NCBI GenBank assembly: GCA_028289965.1
Contig: JAQGKS010000060.1
Coordinates: forward strand, 1-36,879
DNA length: 36,879 bases
DNA from: Sphingomonas bacterium
GTDB taxonomy: Bacteria > Pseudomonadota > Alphaproteobacteria > Sphingomonadales > Sphingomonadaceae
Reading direction: 5' to 3'
In this document: positions 21,818-30,365 of the stretch, piece after piece
Numbering within the stretch: the first letter of the stretch is position 1
Layout of the letters: every line of letters begins with the position of its first letter
Notes under the pieces: model-generated
What the model was told of the DNA's origin: nothing
The model's input: the letters and a program-made list of their open reading frames with translations, nothing else
The model's database searches: none
Position numbers and translations under genes: made by a program

Positions 21818-23293
21818 TCAGTCGCGGCCGCCGGAGACGGTCTGCGGTTCGGGGGCCGCCTGCCAGCCGCCACCGAGCGCGCGGTAGAGCTGGACGCTGG
21901 CGGTGGCGCGGTCGGCGCGGGCGGTGGCGCGGCTGTCCTGGCTGGAAAGCAGGCTGCGTTCCGCCTCCAGGAGCTGCTGGAAATCGATCAGCCCGGCGCG
22001 ATATTGGCTGCGCGCGAACAAGGTCGCGTTGTTCGCGGCCTGCTCGGCCAGCAGCAGCTGGCTTTCGCGACGGCGGGCATTGGTGTTGCTGGTCAGCGCA
22101 TTCTCGACATCCTCGAGCGCGGTGAGCACCGCCGACCGGTAATTGCCGAAGGCGACGCCGGCGCCGCCCCTGGCGCTTTCGATCTGGGCACGCAGCGCGC
22201 CGCCCTGGAAGATCGGTGCGCTGATGCTGCCAAGCAGGGTGCCGATCACCGAATCGGCGACGCCGGTAAAGGAGCTGCCCGATCCGGTGAGCGAGCCCGA
22301 CAACCGCAGCGCGGGATACAGCTCGGCCGTGGCCACGCCGATCCGGGCACTGGCGGCGGCGAGCGCCCGTTCGGCCGAGACGAGGTCCGGCCGGCGTTGC
22401 AGCAGTTCCGCCGGCAGGCCGGTGGCGATCATTTCCGGTGGCAGGGGGATCGGCTTGATCGGATCGATCAGCGCCGTCACCGATCCCGGCGCCTGGCCGA
22501 GCAGGATTGCGATGCGGTTCACCGCCGCGGTGTAATTGGTCTCCAGCGCGGGGATCGACGCCGCGGTCTGCGCCCGCAGCGCGCGGGCCTGTTCGAGGTC
22601 GAGCGAGCTGACCAGCCCGGCGCGGACGCGCCAGCCGACGATCTCGACCGTCTCGTCCTGATAGCCGAGATTGGCGCGCGCGATCGCCAGCCGCGACTGC
22701 GCCGTCCGCGCGGCGATATAGTTGATCGCGGTATCCGAGGCGACCGACAGCTGGGCGGTGTGGAGATCGGCCACCGCCGCCCCCTCGTCGGCGCGCGCCG
22801 CCTCGACCGAGCGACGGATGCCGCCGAACAGATCGACCTCATAAGAGGCATCGAGCCCGGCGCGGAACGAACTCTGCCCGCCGCTGCTGCGGTTGAACAC
22901 CGCGCCGGTCGTCGGATCGGTGATCGAACCGCCGCCGCGCAACGTCTCGGAGCGCGAGCCCGAACCCGACGCCCCCAGGGACGGCCAGAAGCTGCTCTCG
23001 GACGAGGCCAGCGCCGCGCGCGCCTGGCGCAGCCGCGCCCCCGCCACTTCGACGCTGGGATTGGCGGCAAGCGCGCGGGTGACGAGATCGGTCAGAACCG
23101 GATCGCCGAACGCCTCCCACCAGCCGGCCAGCTCGGCCTCGCTGGCGGGGAGCGGCGCTGCGGCGACGAACCGCTGCGGCACCGCGAGCGAGGCCAGCGC
23201 GGGCGGCTTGTAGTCGGGCCCGACGGCGCAGGCCGACAAGGAGACGGCGAGGCCGATCGGCGCGAGGCGGAGCAAAGAGTGCGGGCGGTTCAT
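21818..23293 (-). CDS. NodT-family outer-membrane efflux lipoprotein
   Basis: This 491-residue TolC-like outer-membrane factor has a lipoprotein signal peptide with lipobox LSAC, lipid anchor C22, then the NodT start VGPDYKPPAL. Two repeated OEP domains follow, containing ALAANPSVEVAGARLRQARA, SYEVDLFGGIRRSVEAA, LLQRRPDLVSAERALAAASA and APIFQGGALRAQIESA. It is the first gene of the seven-gene efflux and two-component operon and would provide the exit duct for the MacAB-like pump. A strong dyad (23318-23352) lies 24 bp upstream of its start. Confidence 0.94.
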   Translation of the reverse strand: MNRPHSLLRLAPIGLAVSLSACAVGPDYKPPALASLAVPQRFVAAAPLPASEAELAGWWEAFGDPVLTDLVTRALAANPSVEVAGARLRQARAALASSESSFWPSLGASGSGSRSETLRGGGSITDPTTGAVFNRSSGGQSSFRAGLDASYEVDLFGGIRRSVEAARADEGAAVADLHTAQLSVASDTAINYIAARTAQSRLAIARANLGYQDETVEIVGWRVRAGLVSSLDLEQARALRAQTAASIPALETNYTAAVNRIAILLGQAPGSVTALIDPIKPIPLPPEMIATGLPAELLQRRPDLVSAERALAAASARIGVATAELYPALRLSGSLTGSGSSFTGVADSVIGTLLGSISAPIFQGGALRAQIESARGGAGVAFGNYRSAVLTALEDVENALTSNTNARRRESQLLLAEQAANNATLFARSQYRAGLIDFQQLLEAERSLLSSQDSRATARADRATASVQLYRALGGGWQAAPEPQTVSGGRD

Positions 23294-23372: not shown

Positions 23373-23807
23373 TCAGCGCTTCTTCCACACCTCGACGATA
23401 CCGCGATCGCCATCGACGCGCACCCGATCGCCGGTTTCGATCACGTCCAGCGGGTCGCGATCGAAATCGGTCACCGTCGGCACCCGCATCACCACCGCGC
23501 CGAGCGCCGCCTTGGTCGTCATCACGTTGAACAGCAGCGCCGCCGGCGCGGTCCCCGCGAGGCGGGCGGTGTGGAACATCGCCGACCAGCCGGACGAACC
23601 CTTGGCGCCGGGGAAGACCAGCACCTTGCCGGCAAAGCTTACCCCCTTCAGTTCGTGGCGGCTCTCGATGATCGTCCCCGACATCGGGTTGATCCCGCCC
23701 CAGCCGGAGATCGTCTCGCGCGTCATCAGCGCCTCGGCCTCGACGACCCCGCCGACCACCTTGCGCCCGGTGAGAACCACGTCGGGCTTCGTCATTACGT
23801 CCAGCAT
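23373..23807 (-). CDS. Aconitase X small (swivel) subunit
   Basis: This 144-residue protein of the aconitase X swivel-domain family (DUF126) is the small partner of the AcnX large subunit encoded immediately upstream. The family marks are GRKVVGGVVEAEALMTRETISGWGG (here split across about residues 15-38), INPMSGTI, and the active-site block FPGAKGSSGW with S71. The start at 23807 is chosen because GGGAG lies nine bases upstream and the product then has the usual length; upstream in-frame codons overlap the large subunit gene. Known AcnX enzymes dehydrate cis-3-hydroxy-L-proline or mevalonate 5-phosphate. Which hydroxy-acid this one uses is unknown. Confidence 0.9.
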   Translation of the reverse strand: MLDVMTKPDVVLTGRKVVGGVVEAEALMTRETISGWGGINPMSGTIIESRHELKGVSFAGKVLVFPGAKGSSGWSAMFHTARLAGTAPAALLFNVMTTKAALGAVVMRVPTVTDFDRDPLDVIETGDRVRVDGDRGIVEVWKKR

Positions 23808-23836
23808 TTCGACCACTCCCAATCGGTTGCGCGCGG

Positions 23837-25126
23837 CTATTGCAGCCGCCCCTTCCACTTGCCGGTGCAGGCGGCATCGATGCATTCCGCGGTGGTGCCG
23901 AACCAGCCTTCGATCCCCATGATCGCCGGCAGGTAATGGACCTGCTTGGCGCTATCGAGGGCGGCGACCCGGGTGCCGGGCGGCACCGCGGCGCTGATCG
24001 ACGAACAGGTGTCGGTCATCAGATAGGCGCCGGCGTCGCGCAGGATCTGGGTGTAGCCGTTGGCGTCGGCGGTGGCCTTAACCGCCCGGCTGGTGAACAC
24101 CCACAAGGCGCTGTTGGTCGAAACCTTGCGGCCTTCGATCAGGTGCGCAGCCTGGGCGATCTGCTCGATCGAATAATGCGGGCAGCCGAGCATGACATAA
24201 TCGACGTCGGTCGAGCTGCCGACCGAATTGAGCGTCTCATAGGTCCGGCGGCGCGCCGCGGCGTCGTAGACGAAGCTGTTCTGCGGCACGTTCGATCCGA
24301 ACGCGACCTCCGCGCTCGGCGCCTCGGGGGTGATGCCGACCATGTGGTACATCTCGACCCCGCCGGACGATGCTGCGGCCGCGCCGAAATGCTTGTGGCG
24401 GATCAGGCTGGCCTTGCCGATCGATCCCTCGATCACCGGGATCGTATCCTCGACCGCGCCACCGATGAAATAGCCGAGCATACCCCAGTCGAACACGTCC
24501 TCGACCGGCACGTCGACCTGCACGCGGTGCTGGCCGTGGCGGAATTCGGGGCGGTGAAAGCCCCAATCGGGGATGCGCTTGGCGAGCATCGCGGCACTGG
24601 TCGATTCGCGCCCCTCGCAATTGGTGCGCGCGCCGATCACCGAGTTGCAGAAGACGACCGCCGAGCTTTCCATCCACGCACAATGCTCGCCCATCACCGG
24701 CACGTTGCCGGCGATGTAGGGCGTGCAGGTCTTGAGGATCTGGATGCCGTGCGCGGCGGTCTCGCGCTCGTCGGAGGCGAAGTTGGCGTGGGCGGCGGCG
24801 GTCATCCCCTGCTCGGCCCACAATTCGGGGTCCATCCCGCCCTGGAGGTGGCAGGAATAGGCGTTCATCCGCGGCACATCGACGACCTCGTCGGAATCGA
24901 GGTCGAAGCGGGAGAATACGGCGCGGTAATCGCCGCCATCCGCCTTGTAATAATCCTTTACGAAGGCGTTCGAGGAACCCGGCACGCCGGCGACGTTGTT
25001 CGTCTCGACAAAGCGTTCCGCGCCGAGCGCCTCGGCATAGCGCACCAGCAATTCCATCGCCTTCTGCACGGCGGCGCCATCGTCGCCCCCCAGCATCGCC
25101 TGCTCTTCCGTCGTGAGCGTGACCAT
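23837..25126 (-). CDS. Aconitase X large (catalytic) subunit
   Basis: This 429-residue catalytic subunit of the aconitase X family contains candidate Fe-S ligands at C134 (LKTCTPY), C170 (TNCEGRES) and C374 (MTDTCSS), with further conserved blocks EHCAWMESSAVVF, RPEFRHGQH, MLGCPHYS and TNSALWVFTSRAVKA. The usual fused or split AcnX arrangement is split here, with the small subunit 29 bp downstream. AcnX enzymes are dehydratases. The MarR regulator, AAHS-type transporter and TonB receptor upstream suggest that the substrate is an imported small acid rather than an isoprenoid intermediate; that is an inference. An alternative is cis-3-hydroxyproline degradation, but no proline-pathway partner genes are seen. 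Confidence 0.9.
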   Translation of the reverse strand: MVTLTTEEQAMLGGDDGAAVQKAMELLVRYAEALGAERFVETNNVAGVPGSSNAFVKDYYKADGGDYRAVFSRFDLDSDEVVDVPRMNAYSCHLQGGMDPELWAEQGMTAAAHANFASDERETAAHGIQILKTCTPYIAGNVPVMGEHCAWMESSAVVFCNSVIGARTNCEGRESTSAAMLAKRIPDWGFHRPEFRHGQHRVQVDVPVEDVFDWGMLGYFIGGAVEDTIPVIEGSIGKASLIRHKHFGAAAASSGGVEMYHMVGITPEAPSAEVAFGSNVPQNSFVYDAAARRRTYETLNSVGSSTDVDYVMLGCPHYSIEQIAQAAHLIEGRKVSTNSALWVFTSRAVKATADANGYTQILRDAGAYLMTDTCSSISAAVPPGTRVAALDSAKQVHYLPAIMGIEGWFGTTAECIDAACTGKWKGRLQ

Positions 25127-25149
25127 CGGCCTATCCTCTCATTCCTGTT

Positions 25150-25803
25150 TCACTTGATCTCGTCGAGGCGGTGGACGATCTGCGACAGCACCTTCTGGCA
25201 GATCGCCATCTCGGCGGGGTCGATGTCCCGCAGCAGTTCGGCCCGCAGCGTGTTGGTCGCCGCCTTGATACTCTCGACCACCTCGACCCCCTCGGGGGTG
25301 ATCCGGTTGATCGTCATCCGCCGGTCAAGCTCGCTCTGGCGACGCTCGATCAGTCCTTCCTGGGCCAGCAGGTCGAGCATCCGGACCATCGTCGGCCCCT
25401 CGATGCTGATCAGCCGGGCCAGCTCGCGCTGGGTCATTTCATCGCCCGAGAAGGCGACGAGGAACAGCGTCTCCCACCGCGCCATGCTCTGGCCGAGCGC
25501 CTTGATCCGCTTGTCGGCCAGCTTGCGCCACCGCCGCGCCGCCAGCACGATCGATCGGGTCAGCTGGAAATAGGTCTCGGTGTCGGTGCCCGGTGGATAA
25601 TGGCTGTGGAAGCTGGCGAGATAGCGATCGGGATCCTTGAGGCTCGCCGCGGCCATGTCGGCCGCGCCTGACGCCCGCGCCTGGGCCCGTTCGCGCGCGC
25701 CGGACACGCTGCGCGGCGCGGCTTCGTCTCCTGCTAGCTCGTCGCCTGCTACCTCGTCCGCCTCGCCGGGCATGTCGCGATCCGCGCTCAGTTCGCGTGC
25801 CAT
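25150..25803 (-). CDS. MarR-family transcriptional regulator
   Basis: This 217-residue protein has a MarR winged-helix domain in about residues 75-200: MARWETLFLVAFSGDEMTQRELARLISIEGPTMVRMLDLL is the helix-turn-helix region (quoted in part only as MTQRELARLISIEG and TMVRMLDLLAQEGLI) and the wing is RRQSELDRRMTINRITPEG. About 60 extra N-terminal residues are acidic and Ala-rich and look disordered. The start at 25803 has GAGGA seven bases upstream, better than the ATG at 25821. It lies within the transporter-aconitase X operon and probably represses it, responding to a pathway acid. Two GATAG-N4-CTACC sites before the TonB receptor gene are candidate operators. Confidence 0.9.
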   Translation of the reverse strand: MARELSADRDMPGEADEVAGDELAGDEAAPRSVSGARERAQARASGAADMAAASLKDPDRYLASFHSHYPPGTDTETYFQLTRSIVLAARRWRKLADKRIKALGQSMARWETLFLVAFSGDEMTQRELARLISIEGPTMVRMLDLLAQEGLIERRQSELDRRMTINRITPEGVEVVESIKAATNTLRAELLRDIDPAEMAICQKVLSQIVHRLDEIK

Positions 25804-25836
25804 GTGGACATCCTCGTTCATGTCAGCCCGGTTGGT

Positions 25837-27231
25837 TCAAGGCGCGATCGCCGGGGCGGCGGCGATGCCGGGTGCAGGGTGACGCTTGCGCGCCGCGATC
25901 ACCAGATGGATTCCGACGATGCACACGCCGACGACGAGCGGGCACACGGCCAGCAGCGCATAGGTACGCTCCGCCGGCACCCCGCTCGCCAGCACCTGCG
26001 CGCCGAGCAACGGACCGAGCACGCCGCCGACCTTGGCGACCGAGGTCGCCCAGCCCGCGCCGCTCGCCCGGATCGCGCTGGGATAGAATATGCCGGCGAT
26101 GCTCAGCACGCCATAATGTTCGCCGCCGATCAGCGCGGCGGCCAGCACCACCATCGGCAGGAACAGCGCCATCGGCGCGACGGTGAGCCCGACCATCAAC
26201 AGCACGGGCACCGCCAGCGCGGCATAGATCGCGATCGACAGCGGCCCCAGCCGGTCGGTGAAGCGCATCACCGCCAGCCCCAGCGCCGCGCCCGAAAGCC
26301 CGCCGATCGAGGCGACCACCGCGGCGGTGTTGCGCGGGAAGTCCATCGCCTCGAGCACGATCGGCGCCCACGACGCGCTGAAATAGATCGCCAGCGAACT
26401 CGCGCTATAGCCGAGCCATAGCAGCGGCGTGATGAACTTGAGGTCGCCGGCGAACAGCTGCGACGCGCGGAAGCGCTGATATTGGCCGACCGGCTCGTCG
26501 CCGAGGACGAAGCGATCCCCCGGCCGAACGTCGATCGCCGGATCGAGCCGCTTGAGCAGGCGCACCACCAGATCGGGCCGCATCCCCTTGCTGACCAGGA
26601 AGCGCGGCGATTCGGGCAGCCAGACGAGCAGCAACGTGGCGCAGGCGAGCGTGCCGACCCCGCCGAGCAGGAACACGCCCTCCCAGCCATAACTCGGCGC
26701 GATCCACACCGTCAGCGGCCCCGCCAGCGTCGACCCGGCGGTGTAGCCGAGCATGATCACCGTCACGACGGTCGAGCGGAACCGCTTCGGCACGAATTCG
26801 ATGTTGAGCGCCCAGGCCAGCGGCAGCATGCCGCCGATCGCGATCCCGTCGAGGAAGCGCAAGGCGAGCAGCTGGTGATAGGTCTCGGCCAACGCGGTCG
26901 CGGCGGTGAGGATGCCGAACGCGAAGGCCGCGCCGATCACCGTCGGCCGCCGGCCGATGCGATCGCCCAGATAGGAAAAGACGAACCCGCCGAGCATCAT
27001 CCCCAGCAGCCCGGCCGAAAAGACGTTGCCGAGCATCAGCGTGTCGAGCCCGAGATCGTCGCGCATATAGGGGGCGGTGAAGCTGATCAGCAGCATGTCG
27101 AACCCGTCGAACACGGTGATCAGCAGCGACAGGATGATCAGGCGGTAGTTGAACGGACCGAGCCGGCGCTGCTCGATGATCGCGGCGACGTCTACGGTGC
27201 GGACGTCGGCCTCGAATAAGCGGTCGGTCAT
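25837..27231 (-). CDS. MFS transporter, AAHS (aromatic acid:H+ symporter) type
   Basis: This 464-residue inner-membrane protein has about 12 hydrophobic segments. Helix 1 carries the AAHS-type DGFDMLLISFTAPYM, and the 2-3 loop carries GDRIGRRP. LRFLDGIAIGGMLPLAWALN and LPESPRFLVSKG are further features of the sugar/acid symporter branch. Related proteins import benzoate, hydroxybenzoates or other carboxylic acids with protons. It lies between the TonB receptor (upstream, separated by a 15-bp perfect hairpin) and the MarR gene, so it is probably the inner-membrane step for the substrate used by aconitase X. The exact substrate is unknown. Confidence 0.9.
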   Translation of the reverse strand: MTDRLFEADVRTVDVAAIIEQRRLGPFNYRLIILSLLITVFDGFDMLLISFTAPYMRDDLGLDTLMLGNVFSAGLLGMMLGGFVFSYLGDRIGRRPTVIGAAFAFGILTAATALAETYHQLLALRFLDGIAIGGMLPLAWALNIEFVPKRFRSTVVTVIMLGYTAGSTLAGPLTVWIAPSYGWEGVFLLGGVGTLACATLLLVWLPESPRFLVSKGMRPDLVVRLLKRLDPAIDVRPGDRFVLGDEPVGQYQRFRASQLFAGDLKFITPLLWLGYSASSLAIYFSASWAPIVLEAMDFPRNTAAVVASIGGLSGAALGLAVMRFTDRLGPLSIAIYAALAVPVLLMVGLTVAPMALFLPMVVLAAALIGGEHYGVLSIAGIFYPSAIRASGAGWATSVAKVGGVLGPLLGAQVLASGVPAERTYALLAVCPLVVGVCIVGIHLVIAARKRHPAPGIAAAPAIAP

Positions 27232-27248
27232 AATCTGTCCCGTCGGAT

Positions 27249-27281
27249 TGTCCGGGCGCGGCGGCTCGCCGCGCCCGGACA
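27249..27281. repeat. Perfect 15-bp inverted repeat between receptor and MFS genes
   Basis: TGTCCGGGCGCGGCG and its exact reverse complement are separated by 3 bases, forming a very stable GC-rich hairpin 8 bases after the receptor stop codon. No T-run follows on the minus strand, so it is not a typical intrinsic terminator. It may act as an attenuator, an RNA stabiliser of the upstream message, or a processing site. Confidence 0.8.
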
Positions 27282-27288
27282 GGATCGA

Positions 27289-30279
27289 TCAATACCGGAA
27301 GCGCATGCCTGCCTTGTAGGAGCGGCCGACCGGGCTGAAGAGCAGGTTGTTGCCCACCCCGTTGGCGCCCGGGATCAGCGGCGGCTCGGTGTTGAACAGG
27401 TTATCGACGCCCAGGTAGAAAGTGACGTTGCGCTTCTCTTCCTTCAGCACGTCGACCTGCCCGAGCACGTCGATATAGGTCTTCGATTCGACGCTGTTGG
27501 TGTTGGAGCAGGTGCCGCAGCTCGCCGCCAGCGTGTAACCGGCCTGGTTCGGGCCGATGAAGGCGGCGTTGTAGATGCCCTTCGGAATGTAGCGGCCATG
27601 CAGGCTCAACCGCGCCGGCTCGACATTCAAGGTCAGCAGCGCATCGATCGTGTAATCGGGCACGCCCGGCACGGTGCCGCCGCGCACGCCGGTCTGGCCC
27701 GCGCGCTGGATACCGGCGACCGAGTCGCGGGTGATCAGATCCTCGTTGATCGTCGCCAGCACCCGCAGGTCGGCCGAACCGAGCCCGCCCAGCGGCTGGC
27801 GATAGGTGAACTCGATGTCATAGCCGCGGGCGATGACCTGGTTCACGTTCTGGAAGACGTCGACCACTTCGGTGATCACGCCGGTCGTATCGCGAGTGAT
27901 CAGCGAACAGAATTCGGTCGCGCCGCCGTTGCAGCGATCGGCGATCGTCTGCGATCCGAGCACGTCGATCGCGTCGTCGATCTTGACCTCATAATAATCG
28001 ACCGAGGCGCGCATCCGCCCGAGCACCCCGCCTTGCGGCTGGAGCACGACGCCGATCGTCTTGGTGTTGGCCCGCTCCGGGATGAGCGCCGGGTTGGAAC
28101 CCGAGAAGCGCCGCGCGTTGGTTTGGGTCAGGTTGCGCGGATCGGTCAGGATCTGGAAGCCGATCGTCGTCGGGCCGAACAGTTCGTTGATGTTCGGCGC
28201 GCGGATGTCGCGCGAGCGGGTGGCGCGGAAGCGGAGGAAGTCCACCGGCTCCCACACCGCGCCGACCTTCCACGTGGTGGCATTGACGGTCGAGCTCGTG
28301 CCCGCGCCCTCACGCTTGTAATGGGTGCGGCGGATCGCGCCGTTGAGGCTCAGTTCCTGCAGGAACGGGATGTCCTTGGCGAGCGGCAGTTCGCCTTCGA
28401 TATAGCCTTCCGTGACCTCGATCTTGCCGGCGATGTCGGAGCCGTTGCCGGCGAAGAAGGCGAGCGAGCGCGAAACCGGGTCGGTGCCGCCGCTGATCTT
28501 GTCGCTGCGATATTCACCGCCCGCCGCGATCGAGAAAGGCCCGGCCCACAGGTCGAACAATGCGCCGCTGACGTTGGCGGCGACGACATGCTCGATCGTC
28601 TTGTTGGTCTGGAACGCGTCGGCGGTGACATAGTCGAGCGCGCCCGCGGACGCGCGGTTGCCGAACGGATTGAACGGCACGCAGCCCGCCGCCGCGGCGC
28701 GGGTGGCGGCGACCGCGCTCAGCGTGTCGCGGCAGACGATGTTGCCGGATGGGTCGCGCACCGCATCCACCGCGCGCAGCACGTTGGCCGAGATCGTCGC
28801 GTTGCGCGTGTCGGACCGGAAGTTGTTGTTGCCATACTGATAATAGGCATCCCACTTCCAATTGTCGCCAAGGCGGCCTTCGAGCGAGGCGACCGCGCGG
28901 AAGGTCTTGTTGATCGCGGTGATATAGCCCTGGCCGATATCGTTGAACGTGCGGCCGAAGGTGAAGGTCGGGATCCCCGGATTGGCGGCGATGATGTCGG
29001 CGACGTTCAACCGCGTGTCGGCAACCCGCGGGATGGTCGAGATGAACGCATTGTCGCGGCGGATCGCGATGCCGGTATTCTTATATTCGACGGTACCATG
29101 ATTGGCCTTGAGCCGGCCGTAGCTGACGTCGAGCCCGGCGGTGATGTCGTCGGTCGCCTCCCAGGTCAGCTTGCCGTAGAGCGCATAACGCTGGGTCGGC
29201 GACTTGAGCGGGATCGCGTCGAAATAAGCGTTCTGGTCATCATTCTCGCCGCCGATCATGTAGAGCGAGTTGATCGAGCTGCCATAGACGAAGCGACGCG
29301 GCGTACCGTCCGGATTGAAGGTGATGCCGGTCAGCGGGCCGAACACCGGCCCTGCCGCGGGGAAACCGGTCGGGTTGAACACGCCGGTGCGCGCGATCGT
29401 CGACTGATGGATCTCGGGTAGGATGTTGTTGGCCGGAATGTCGGTCCGCCCCGATCCGGCGCGGCCGAAGTTGAGCGTGTCGGTGCGGCACCACGAACGG
29501 ACCTGGCAATTGCCAACGCCGCGATTCTTCTGCCATTCGCCGCCGAGGACGACATGGACGCGGTCGCCCATCTTGGCGCCGGCGGCGAGCGACAGGAGGA
29601 AGTCCTCATCGTCGCCCTGCTCGGACATGCCGGCCTGCGCCGTTCCCTTGACCCCCTCGAACGTGCGGTCGAGGATCAGGTTGACCACGCCGGCGACGGC
29701 GTCTGAGCCATAGGCCGCCGATGCGCCGCCGGTGACGACTTCGGCGCGCTCGAGCAGGATGCTCGGGATCATGTTGGTGTCGACGGTCGACTGGGTGGTC
29801 GATGGCACGAAGCGCTTGCCGTCGACCAGCGTCAGCGTGCGCACCGCGCCCAGGCCGCGAAGGTCGAGGATGCGGCCGCCGATATAGCCATTCTGGGTCA
29901 GCCCCTGCTGGGCCGGGCCGTTGCTCTGGCGGAAGGAGGGCAGTTCATTGAGCGCATCGCCGATGCTGGTGACGCCGCGCTCCTGCAGCCGCTCGGTCCC
30001 GACCACCGACACCGGCGTCGGCGCGCTGAAGCCCGAACGGGCGATGCGCGATCCGGTGACGACGATGTCCGCGGCGTTGGCCTGGGACAGGGTGCTCGAC
30101 GGGACCGTGTTGGTTTCCGCCTCGGCATCGGCCGTCGGCGGCGCCGGATCGCCGGCGCTGGCGGGCTCCTGGGCGAAGGCGGCGGTGGAGACGGTCAGGC
30201 TCGCGAGCGCGATGCCGATCGCCGGCAGGCTCGAAGTGAACAGTGTCGCGGCATGGCGGCGCAGCACGGACTGTCGCAT
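27289..30279 (-). CDS. TonB-dependent outer-membrane receptor
   Basis: This 996-residue receptor has a long signal peptide (about 1-36, ending AAFAQ), an acidic Pro/Ala stretch and a TonB-box region with DIVVTGSRIARSG. The plug domain contains TPVSVVGTERLQERGVTSIG, LNELPSFRQS and ASAAYGSDAVAGVVNLIL. The 22-strand barrel ends with the outer-membrane-type terminal Phe/Tyr (KAGMRFRY). Cys pairs in the predicted loops (GNCQVRSWC, DRCNGGATEFC, ASCGTCSN) probably form disulfides. It is the large 'left-right' receptor type common in sphingomonads. It heads the transporter, MarR and aconitase X genes and is likely the outer-membrane uptake step. GGGAGAG precedes the start. Confidence 0.94.
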   Translation of the reverse strand: MRQSVLRRHAATLFTSSLPAIGIALASLTVSTAAFAQEPASAGDPAPPTADAEAETNTVPSSTLSQANAADIVVTGSRIARSGFSAPTPVSVVGTERLQERGVTSIGDALNELPSFRQSNGPAQQGLTQNGYIGGRILDLRGLGAVRTLTLVDGKRFVPSTTQSTVDTNMIPSILLERAEVVTGGASAAYGSDAVAGVVNLILDRTFEGVKGTAQAGMSEQGDDEDFLLSLAAGAKMGDRVHVVLGGEWQKNRGVGNCQVRSWCRTDTLNFGRAGSGRTDIPANNILPEIHQSTIARTGVFNPTGFPAAGPVFGPLTGITFNPDGTPRRFVYGSSINSLYMIGGENDDQNAYFDAIPLKSPTQRYALYGKLTWEATDDITAGLDVSYGRLKANHGTVEYKNTGIAIRRDNAFISTIPRVADTRLNVADIIAANPGIPTFTFGRTFNDIGQGYITAINKTFRAVASLEGRLGDNWKWDAYYQYGNNNFRSDTRNATISANVLRAVDAVRDPSGNIVCRDTLSAVAATRAAAAGCVPFNPFGNRASAGALDYVTADAFQTNKTIEHVVAANVSGALFDLWAGPFSIAAGGEYRSDKISGGTDPVSRSLAFFAGNGSDIAGKIEVTEGYIEGELPLAKDIPFLQELSLNGAIRRTHYKREGAGTSSTVNATTWKVGAVWEPVDFLRFRATRSRDIRAPNINELFGPTTIGFQILTDPRNLTQTNARRFSGSNPALIPERANTKTIGVVLQPQGGVLGRMRASVDYYEVKIDDAIDVLGSQTIADRCNGGATEFCSLITRDTTGVITEVVDVFQNVNQVIARGYDIEFTYRQPLGGLGSADLRVLATINEDLITRDSVAGIQRAGQTGVRGGTVPGVPDYTIDALLTLNVEPARLSLHGRYIPKGIYNAAFIGPNQAGYTLAASCGTCSNTNSVESKTYIDVLGQVDVLKEEKRNVTFYLGVDNLFNTEPPLIPGANGVGNNLLFSPVGRSYKAGMRFRY

Positions 30280-30324: not shown

Positions 30325-30365
30325 GATAGAATGCTACCTACGCAAGTGTCCGATAGTTTGCTACC
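30325..30365. promoter_or_regulatory. Two repeated operator-like sites upstream of the TonB receptor
   Basis: GATAGAATGCTACC (30325-30338) and GATAGTTTGCTACC (30352-30365) match at 12 of 14 positions, spaced 27 bp start to start. Each is itself an imperfect palindrome with a TAG-N4-CTA core, the form of many MarR-family operators. They lie 46-86 bp upstream of the receptor start, where a promoter is expected, and the cluster encodes a MarR protein. Confidence 0.6.

Follow-up and report, generated by a model that had tools for sequence, protein, structure and literature searches.

Analysis of a 36,879-nucleotide stretch of Sphingomonas bacterium DNA (assembly GCA_028289965.1, contig JAQGKS010000060.1; hereafter the window) demonstrated that five open reading frames (ORFs) lie on the minus strand, from 30279 down to 23373, in the order TonB receptor, MFS carrier, MarR regulator, aconitase X (AcnX) large subunit and AcnX small subunit. 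All five scored over the Pfam cut-offs for their families (TonB receptor, MFS, MarR, AcnX and AcnX swivel, respectively), and the uptake-to-enzyme order on one strand that an initial annotation, made from the sequence alone, had described was found as described. The first gene (27289..30279) encodes a TonB-dependent outer-membrane receptor of 996 amino acids, with Pfam plug and barrel scores of 70 and 112 bits. It is followed by a 464-amino-acid carrier (25837..27231; MFS_1, 139 bits), a 223-amino-acid MarR-family regulator (25150..25821; MarR_2, 42 bits) and the catalytic large subunit of AcnX with 429 amino acids (23837..25126; PF04412, 355.2 bits against a cut-off of 31.5). The gaps between these four genes, calculated from the coordinates, are 57, 15 and 23 bases. 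The ORF of the small (swivel) subunit measures 170 amino acids (23373..23885; PF01989, 85.9 bits against a cut-off of 27) and overlaps the large-subunit ORF only if the first ATG is taken as the start. Further in-frame ATGs at 23807 and 23795 lie just ahead of the conserved part, and one of the two is likely the true start. The genome to which the window belongs (3.0 Mb assembly, 87% complete) contains a single AcnX match.

Relatives of the large subunit were sought in one genome per species, which gave 95 confirmed loci, and the best 80 were kept. A locus was counted as full when AcnX was flanked by 8 kb or more on each side; 57 loci were full, and 21 of these were assigned to Sphingomonadales. 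Sphingobium sp. SYK-6 possesses the identical five-gene order, with identities of 51, 62, 54, 84 and 63% for the receptor, carrier, MarR regulator, large subunit and small subunit, respectively. Of the 21 full Sphingomonadales loci, 17 have a receptor of the window's kind near AcnX, 13 have the carrier there and 12 the MarR gene. These and the other neighbor tallies were made with tblastn; some ORFs, including one partner gene described below (FADox6 in locus L236), were overlooked or wrongly placed by a simple gene caller. Homologues at sphingomonad AcnX loci were 46–62% identical for the receptor and about 50–63% for the carrier, and MarR homologues at AcnX loci were 46–60% identical. The more distant neighbors differ between loci, and the conservation is therefore not whole-chromosome synteny. 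We conclude that the operon exists as described, is conserved and has no assigned function.

Two checks proposed in the initial annotation, phylogenetic placement of AcnX and a neighborhood survey, were carried out. AcnX relatives fell into two sets, at least 48% or at most 36% identical to the window's enzyme, with a gap between them. A tree of 77 rows was built by a quick search without bootstrap; it contained 38 members chosen from the closer set (100 loci) and one-chain type I enzymes from hydroxyproline clusters on plasmids of S. meliloti, Sulfitobacter and P. aeruginosa, and none of its rows was a sequence named type IIa. All 38 sampled members stood on one side of a branch with an SH-aLRT value of 100 and a stem length of 1.07, separate from the fused type I enzymes and from the split group adjoining type I. 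The placement of the T. kodakarensis enzyme in this tree is unsure because of its long branch. Thus, the AcnX of the window did not cluster with the hydroxyproline dehydratases, and this part of the refutation test set in the initial annotation did not go against the proposal. The most divergent AcnX (48%) was that of genome G277. Outside this set, a split AcnX with 30% identity is encoded on a plasmid of Pseudomonas sp. MPC6; its neighbors, a class II aldolase, an SDR protein and an NAD(P)-dependent oxidoreductase, suggest a different AcnX pathway.

It is known that both characterized AcnX reactions are dehydrations, and the type IIa hydroxyproline enzymes are likewise split, according to the available text of PMC8184944. 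In the published mechanism, a Ser abstracts the proton from C2, and the C3 hydroxyl is handled by the cluster iron, a Glu and a Lys. Equivalent residues were read from the alignment columns of the T. kodakarensis enzyme. The equivalents of the cluster cysteines C110, C283 and C342 and of E129, S130, S131, K361 and Y365 were each kept in all 38 clade members, and the catalytic Ser of the small subunit was found in 99 of 100 aligned clade loci, with one gap (repeat fetches of some genomes are counted). The archaeal-type cysteine at the C283 position, present throughout the clade, was found in none of the nine fused enzymes. The window clade shares with the cis-3-hydroxyproline dehydratases (AcnX I/IIa) the family and the catalytic core, and 98 of its 100 loci also have the Trp packed against the pyrrolidine ring in A. 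tumefaciens AcnX (Phe in the other two). Unlike the one-chain type I enzymes, it is split, and the amine-binding Asp203 of A. tumefaciens AcnX occurs in none of the 38 members (25 Ala, 10 Cys and 3 other; Ala in the window), in contrast to 9/9 fused and 17/29 other split sequences, the partial match L173 being counted here with the split group despite its "fused" label in the tree. The NCBIfam model for cis-3-hydroxyproline dehydratase, which describes the one-chain form, gave the window's AcnX 210 bits against a cut-off of 700. No hydroxyproline genes were identified among the operon neighbors scanned by Pfam, and no match to the proline racemase/hydroxyproline epimerase family PF05544 was obtained in the 87% complete genome.

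The archaeal phosphomevalonate dehydratase (AcnX IIb; T. kodakarensis, 7CNR/7CNS, and A. pernix) resembles the window's enzyme in its two subunits, its three cluster cysteines and its catalytic Ser, Glu, Ser, Ser, Lys and Tyr. It differs in that the window clade is separate in the tree (the exact place of the long-branched archaeal row being unsure), carries an insert after the first substrate loop and has catabolic rather than isoprenoid neighbors. Of the phosphate-binding residues of the archaeal enzyme, Asn79, the main Asn among them, is missing from all 38 clade members (36 Leu and 2 other; Leu in the window) and Asn53 from 35 (Asp in the window), the latter in a column beside the insert and hence less sure; Gly48, a main-chain contact, is kept in 36. 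Since the cysteines and active-site residues are kept and the amine-binding Asp and Asn79 are gone, the site fits a 3-hydroxycarboxylate with other contacts for the rest of the molecule. An unrecognized hydroxy acid, as first suggested, is accordingly still the best reading. Landmark residues are likewise absent from the bacterial split AcnX types IIc–IIf, for which the function is reported as not known (PMC8184944; PMC10040528) and the cluster type is called unclear (PMC10040528) in the text available. The window clade may be one of these types. A search of the open-licence literature returned no study of this AcnX cluster, and the available passages of open-licence papers with SYK-6 locus-tag prefixes do not mention AcnX.

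The neighborhood survey, in addition to finding the order shared with SYK-6, placed partner enzymes of the AcnX pathway outside the window. Genes recurring beside AcnX were identified by Pfam, which named some but not all of the recurring clusters. The partners comprised PF12831 FAD oxidoreductases of two clades, named FADox4 and FADox6 here (23% identical to each other), a paralogue of the IlvD/EDD dehydratases, a TauD/TfdA-like dioxygenase and acid transporters of several kinds. Within 9 kb of AcnX, FADox6 was present in 15 of the 57 full loci and FADox4 in 32, with no locus having both, so that 47 had one or the other; the IlvD paralogue was found in 35 and the TfdA-like dioxygenase in 14. 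Whole-genome searches covered six of the ten full loci with no FAD enzyme within 9 kb, the other four genomes lying outside the search, and FADox6 was detected elsewhere in all six. Altogether, 16 genomes were searched whole: FADox6 was present at 70% identity or more in 10, including these six, and the other six all had FADox4 beside AcnX. Among 397 genomes of the window's family, 21 contained AcnX over the cut-off; two of these were of another type (32% identical), leaving 19, of which 17 had FADox6 and one had FADox4 (18/19). FADox6 was found in 15 of the 378 family genomes without the window-type AcnX, in one of them at 52% only. Because these genomes are related, the counts cannot be read as independent trials. 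Each FAD clade behaves as a stand-in for the other at a single step that AcnX-bearing bacteria need.

In the window's own genome, FADox6 lies on another contig (C245:5565-7028), unlinked to AcnX, and shares 71% identity with the FADox6 that lies near AcnX in Sphingomonas lycopersici. It is preceded there by genes for a methylmalonyl-CoA mutase, a radical-SAM BATS protein, a propionyl-CoA carboxylase-like protein and an SDR protein, and followed by genes for a zinc alcohol dehydrogenase and a MetE-like protein. The same genome encodes four dioxygenases of the TfdA-like kind at 40–42% identity. In the one other genome of the genus that was examined (hereafter the sister genome), FADox6 is immediately preceded by a carrier with about 60% identity to that of the window and followed by a GMC oxidoreductase. 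This region (L243:2838-12368) also has, upstream of the three genes, genes for an amidohydrolase, a beta-keto acid cleavage enzyme and SnoaL-like proteins. A homologue of the GMC oxidoreductase (73%) is also present in the window's genome (L250:9166-10815).

The surroundings of FADox6 were inspected in 14 of the 15 family genomes that have it without AcnX. Five of these (L230, L233, L234, L235 and L240) have the IlvD paralogue and an MFS carrier close to FADox6, and a sixth (L236) has an IlvD of the same group and an AAHS-like carrier. FADox6, IlvD and the carrier may therefore form an older core to which AcnX is added. In Sphingobium and relatives (L154, L155, L156, L158 and L159), an AAHS-like carrier, 50–54% identical to that of the window, is divergent from FADox6 and away from AcnX, and FADox6 is followed by a second type of dioxygenase that weakly resembles gamma-butyrobetaine dioxygenase. 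Several more FADox6-like matches lie close together in the SYK-6 genome (C1, 795018-839728), perhaps an array of PF12831 paralogues; facing the AcnX operon of SYK-6 (L006:11897-18442) are a TonB receptor, an MFS protein, a thiamine-pyrophosphate enzyme and a TauD dioxygenase. The reaction of the FAD enzymes was also sought with structure models (mean pLDDT of 66.7 for FADox6 and 81.2 for FADox4) and fold searches of the PDB. The top-ranked matches had TM-scores of about 0.3–0.55 and shared only the broad FAD fold of geranylgeranyl reductases, halogenases and hydroxylases, so that no reaction could be read from the models.

Two operator-like sites were identified near the start of the receptor gene: GGTAGCATTCTATC at 30325..30338 and GGTAGCAAACTATC at 30352..30365, both on the minus strand. 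They are two copies of GGTAGCAWWCTATC, 27 bp apart, starting 46 and 73 bp from the receptor ATG, and they are the only two matches of this type in the window with up to two mismatches (not an independent test). Related sites stand before the receptor gene in SYK-6, where the pair has the same 27-bp spacing, and in others. A 12-base pattern drawn from the window and SYK-6 loci was sought in 2.78 Mb of loci and gave 10 matches, all before a receptor or AcnX gene, compared to 0, 0 and 1 in three first-order shuffles. Six of the 10 lay in loci not used for drawing the pattern; judged by identical AcnX matches and spacings, these represent three organisms, and the rest are repeat fetches. In a wider scan, in which chance alone often produced scores of 8 or more (two shuffled 866-kb sets had 63 each) and only high scores are meaningful, high-scoring variants were found before FADox6 in L010 (23.4) and L012 (26.9) and before FADox4 in L022 (22.6), and weaker variants (12.2) before the dioxygenase gene in L017 and L020. 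Seven Erythrobacteraceae-type loci that have a LysR gene instead (L025–L028 and L030–L032) showed no site of 8 or more just before the receptor. When a motif built without the window's sites was run on 127 kb of the window's genome, the two receptor sites gave the top scores, 24.2 and 19.3. Sites of 13.1, 14.9 and 12.0 were located shortly before FADox6 and two of the four TfdA-like genes. In total, 8 sites of at least 12 were found compared to 1–5 in six shuffles, and the unlinked sites are thus only suggestive.

The initial annotation had taken the receptor and the aromatic-type transporter as a sign of an exotic substrate, and this argument did not hold. SYK-6 has 74 putative TonB receptors, one of which was shown to import a lignin biphenyl acid, and its ddvT, ddvK and ddvR genes are a proven set in which a TonB receptor, an inner-membrane MFS carrier and a MarR-type repressor serve that one acid, as described in the available text of PMC6874591. 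The likeness to the window lies in the types of gene, and the enzymes there differ, acting in the demethylation of biphenyls and in ring cleavage. Relatives from Burkholderia, Paraburkholderia and Pandoraea have a porin near AcnX in place of the TonB receptor. The receptor and carrier type is therefore weak evidence for an exotic substrate. The carrier had been called an AAHS-type symporter; the AAHS model TIGR00895 was indeed its best-scoring subfamily, but the score of 305.7 bits is under the curated cut-off of 418.55, and for this reason it is called AAHS-like here. Other relatives have genes for TctC (9/57 full loci), TRAP (DctM, 2/57) or ABC-type binding proteins beside AcnX. Given the score and these other transporter types, the AAHS label does not fix the substrate as aromatic, and the variety of transporters across lineages indicates an organic acid.

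Gene order, AcnX clade, residues, partner genes and operator-like sites, all observed by computation, suggest an inducible operon for the uptake and breakdown of a hydroxycarboxylic acid other than cis-3-hydroxyproline or mevalonate 5-phosphate, a reading to which we assign a probability of about 0.7. As the substrate class we favor 3-hydroxycarboxylic acids from plants, with a [4Fe-4S] cluster serving in the dehydration. The type of cluster, the reaction, the repression and the order of the steps are inferred in the following scheme. The acid would pass the outer membrane through the TonB receptor and the inner membrane through the AAHS-like carrier, and the acid or its product would free the MarR repressor from the two predicted sites before the receptor gene. 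In the AcnX heterodimer, with the [4Fe-4S] cluster held by the three cysteines, the small-subunit Ser would act as the base that takes the alpha proton, and Fe, Glu and Lys would remove the beta hydroxyl, so that an alpha,beta-unsaturated acid results. The PF12831 FAD oxidoreductase, encoded elsewhere in the window's genome, may perform a neighboring step, either acting on the unsaturated product or preparing the substrate. In many relatives, the IlvD/EDD dehydratase, which would dehydrate a 2,3-dihydroxy acid to a 2-keto acid, and the TfdA-like dioxygenase may also take part.

Several observations weigh against this interpretation. The IlvD paralogue was not found in the 87% complete window genome, where only a housekeeping-like IlvD at 35–36% was present, and the wider enzyme set is therefore incomplete there. 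No FAD enzyme lies within 9 kb of AcnX in 10 of the 57 full loci, genome G277 matched neither FADox4 nor FADox6, and FADox6 is not exclusive to the AcnX pathway, since 15 of the 397 family genomes have it and lack AcnX. In the sister genome, no receptor, carrier or MarR gene stands beside AcnX, and the scan for operator-like sites gave none scoring 8 or higher there. The third-best site in the window's genome (15.7) is inside the carrier gene, where no promoter is expected. The sites before the unlinked FADox6 and the two dioxygenase genes are weak and their count is not clearly over chance; for the FADox6 site, a two-mismatch search gave 3 matches compared to 2.13 expected. Finally, Asn53 is present in three of the 38 clade members.

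Other explanations were considered on the same evidence. That AcnX stands beside the uptake genes by accident, with no shared role, is very improbable: five loci (L002, L004, L005, L008 and L009) have none of the sought families near AcnX besides its own subunits, but the order recurs in SYK-6, the receptor accompanies AcnX in 17 of the 21 full Sphingomonadales loci, and operator-like sites precede receptor genes in some loci and AcnX in others. It is just as hard to maintain that the operon is a route for cis-3-hydroxy-L-proline, or another hydroxyproline, with an unusual split AcnX. The retained Trp and the split type IIa enzymes would suit such a route, but the clade is separate, the amine-binding Asp is missing, no PF05544 match was obtained in the 87% complete genome, the recurring partners are not proline enzymes, and the hydroxyproline clusters on the S. 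meliloti and Sulfitobacter plasmids look different. AcnX could instead be an aconitase-like isomerase that shifts the hydroxyl of a di- or tricarboxylic acid, such as a citrate analogue, rather than a one-way dehydratase. The three-cysteine cluster site and the TctC or DctM genes near some relatives are compatible with this; the reactions of the two characterized enzymes, the active-site Lys/Tyr set, which is that of AcnX, and the IlvD-type second dehydratase in 35 of the 57 full loci, which fits further dehydration better, make it quite unlikely.

Two further proposals concern the kind of acid. In a lignin route, the TfdA-like dioxygenase would cleave the aryl ether of an aryl hydroxy acid (e.g., a beta-ether gamma-acid), and AcnX would dehydrate a 3-hydroxy-3-aryl acid. 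In its favor, the same operon is present in the lignin degrader SYK-6, the carrier is AAHS-like, the receptor, MFS carrier and MarR regulator parallel the ddvT-ddvK-ddvR set, and the Burkholderia latens dioxygenase has 2,4-D dioxygenases as its nearest relatives of solved structure (232 and 221 bits). Nevertheless, this route is unlikely: the transporter genes of other relatives are of TctC, TRAP or ABC type, the TfdA-like gene occurs in only 14 of the 57 full loci, and no CoA ligase, demethylase or ring-cleavage gene appeared among the recurring neighbor clusters that Pfam identified. Furthermore, enzymes of the IlvD family need a 2,3-dihydroxy acid as the substrate. A polyhydroxy acid of the sugar-acid or saccharinic-acid type, from which the FAD enzyme and two dehydratases would strip oxygen starting from a 2,3-dihydroxy acid, would account for the IlvD/EDD paralogue, and a distant FADox6 locus (L248) contains genes for a 2-hydroxyacid dehydrogenase homologue, an enolase-superfamily protein and an aldehyde dehydrogenase. 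This FADox6 is only 52% identical and lies in a genome without AcnX, and the carriers beside AcnX are not of a sugar-acid permease subfamily, as scored for the carrier of the window. We consider such a substrate somewhat unlikely.

Outside the operon, a gene for a NodT outer-membrane factor (21818-23293; 373 bits) lies directly downstream on the same minus strand. ORFs that read, by eye from the ORF list, like a membrane-fusion protein and MacB-like ABC genes continue to about 17900. Together they would form a tripartite efflux set, which is no recurring neighbor of AcnX. Upstream of the operon, a hotdog thioesterase gene and prfC are located on the opposite strand.

Several bacterial AcnX types are described as lacking a known substrate in the available text of PMC8184944 and PMC10040528, and the window clade could supply a new reaction. 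The question is directly testable, given the recurring partner set, the predicted operator and the fact that the well-studied SYK-6 carries the same operon. In a broader proposal, which we hold tentatively and at slightly less than even odds, the clade belongs to a widespread, undescribed pathway for a common plant hydroxy acid. This pathway would combine AcnX, a bacterial enzyme with an archaeal-type [4Fe-4S] site, and the IlvD/EDD paralogue, the two being unrelated iron-sulfur dehydratases, with a PF12831 enzyme and a TfdA-like dioxygenase. The window would then represent the sphingomonad form, in which a single operon covers uptake and AcnX and the same regulator controls an FAD enzyme encoded elsewhere. 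Sphingomonadales, Burkholderiales, Bradyrhizobium and some Acidobacteriota would have the pathway in common.

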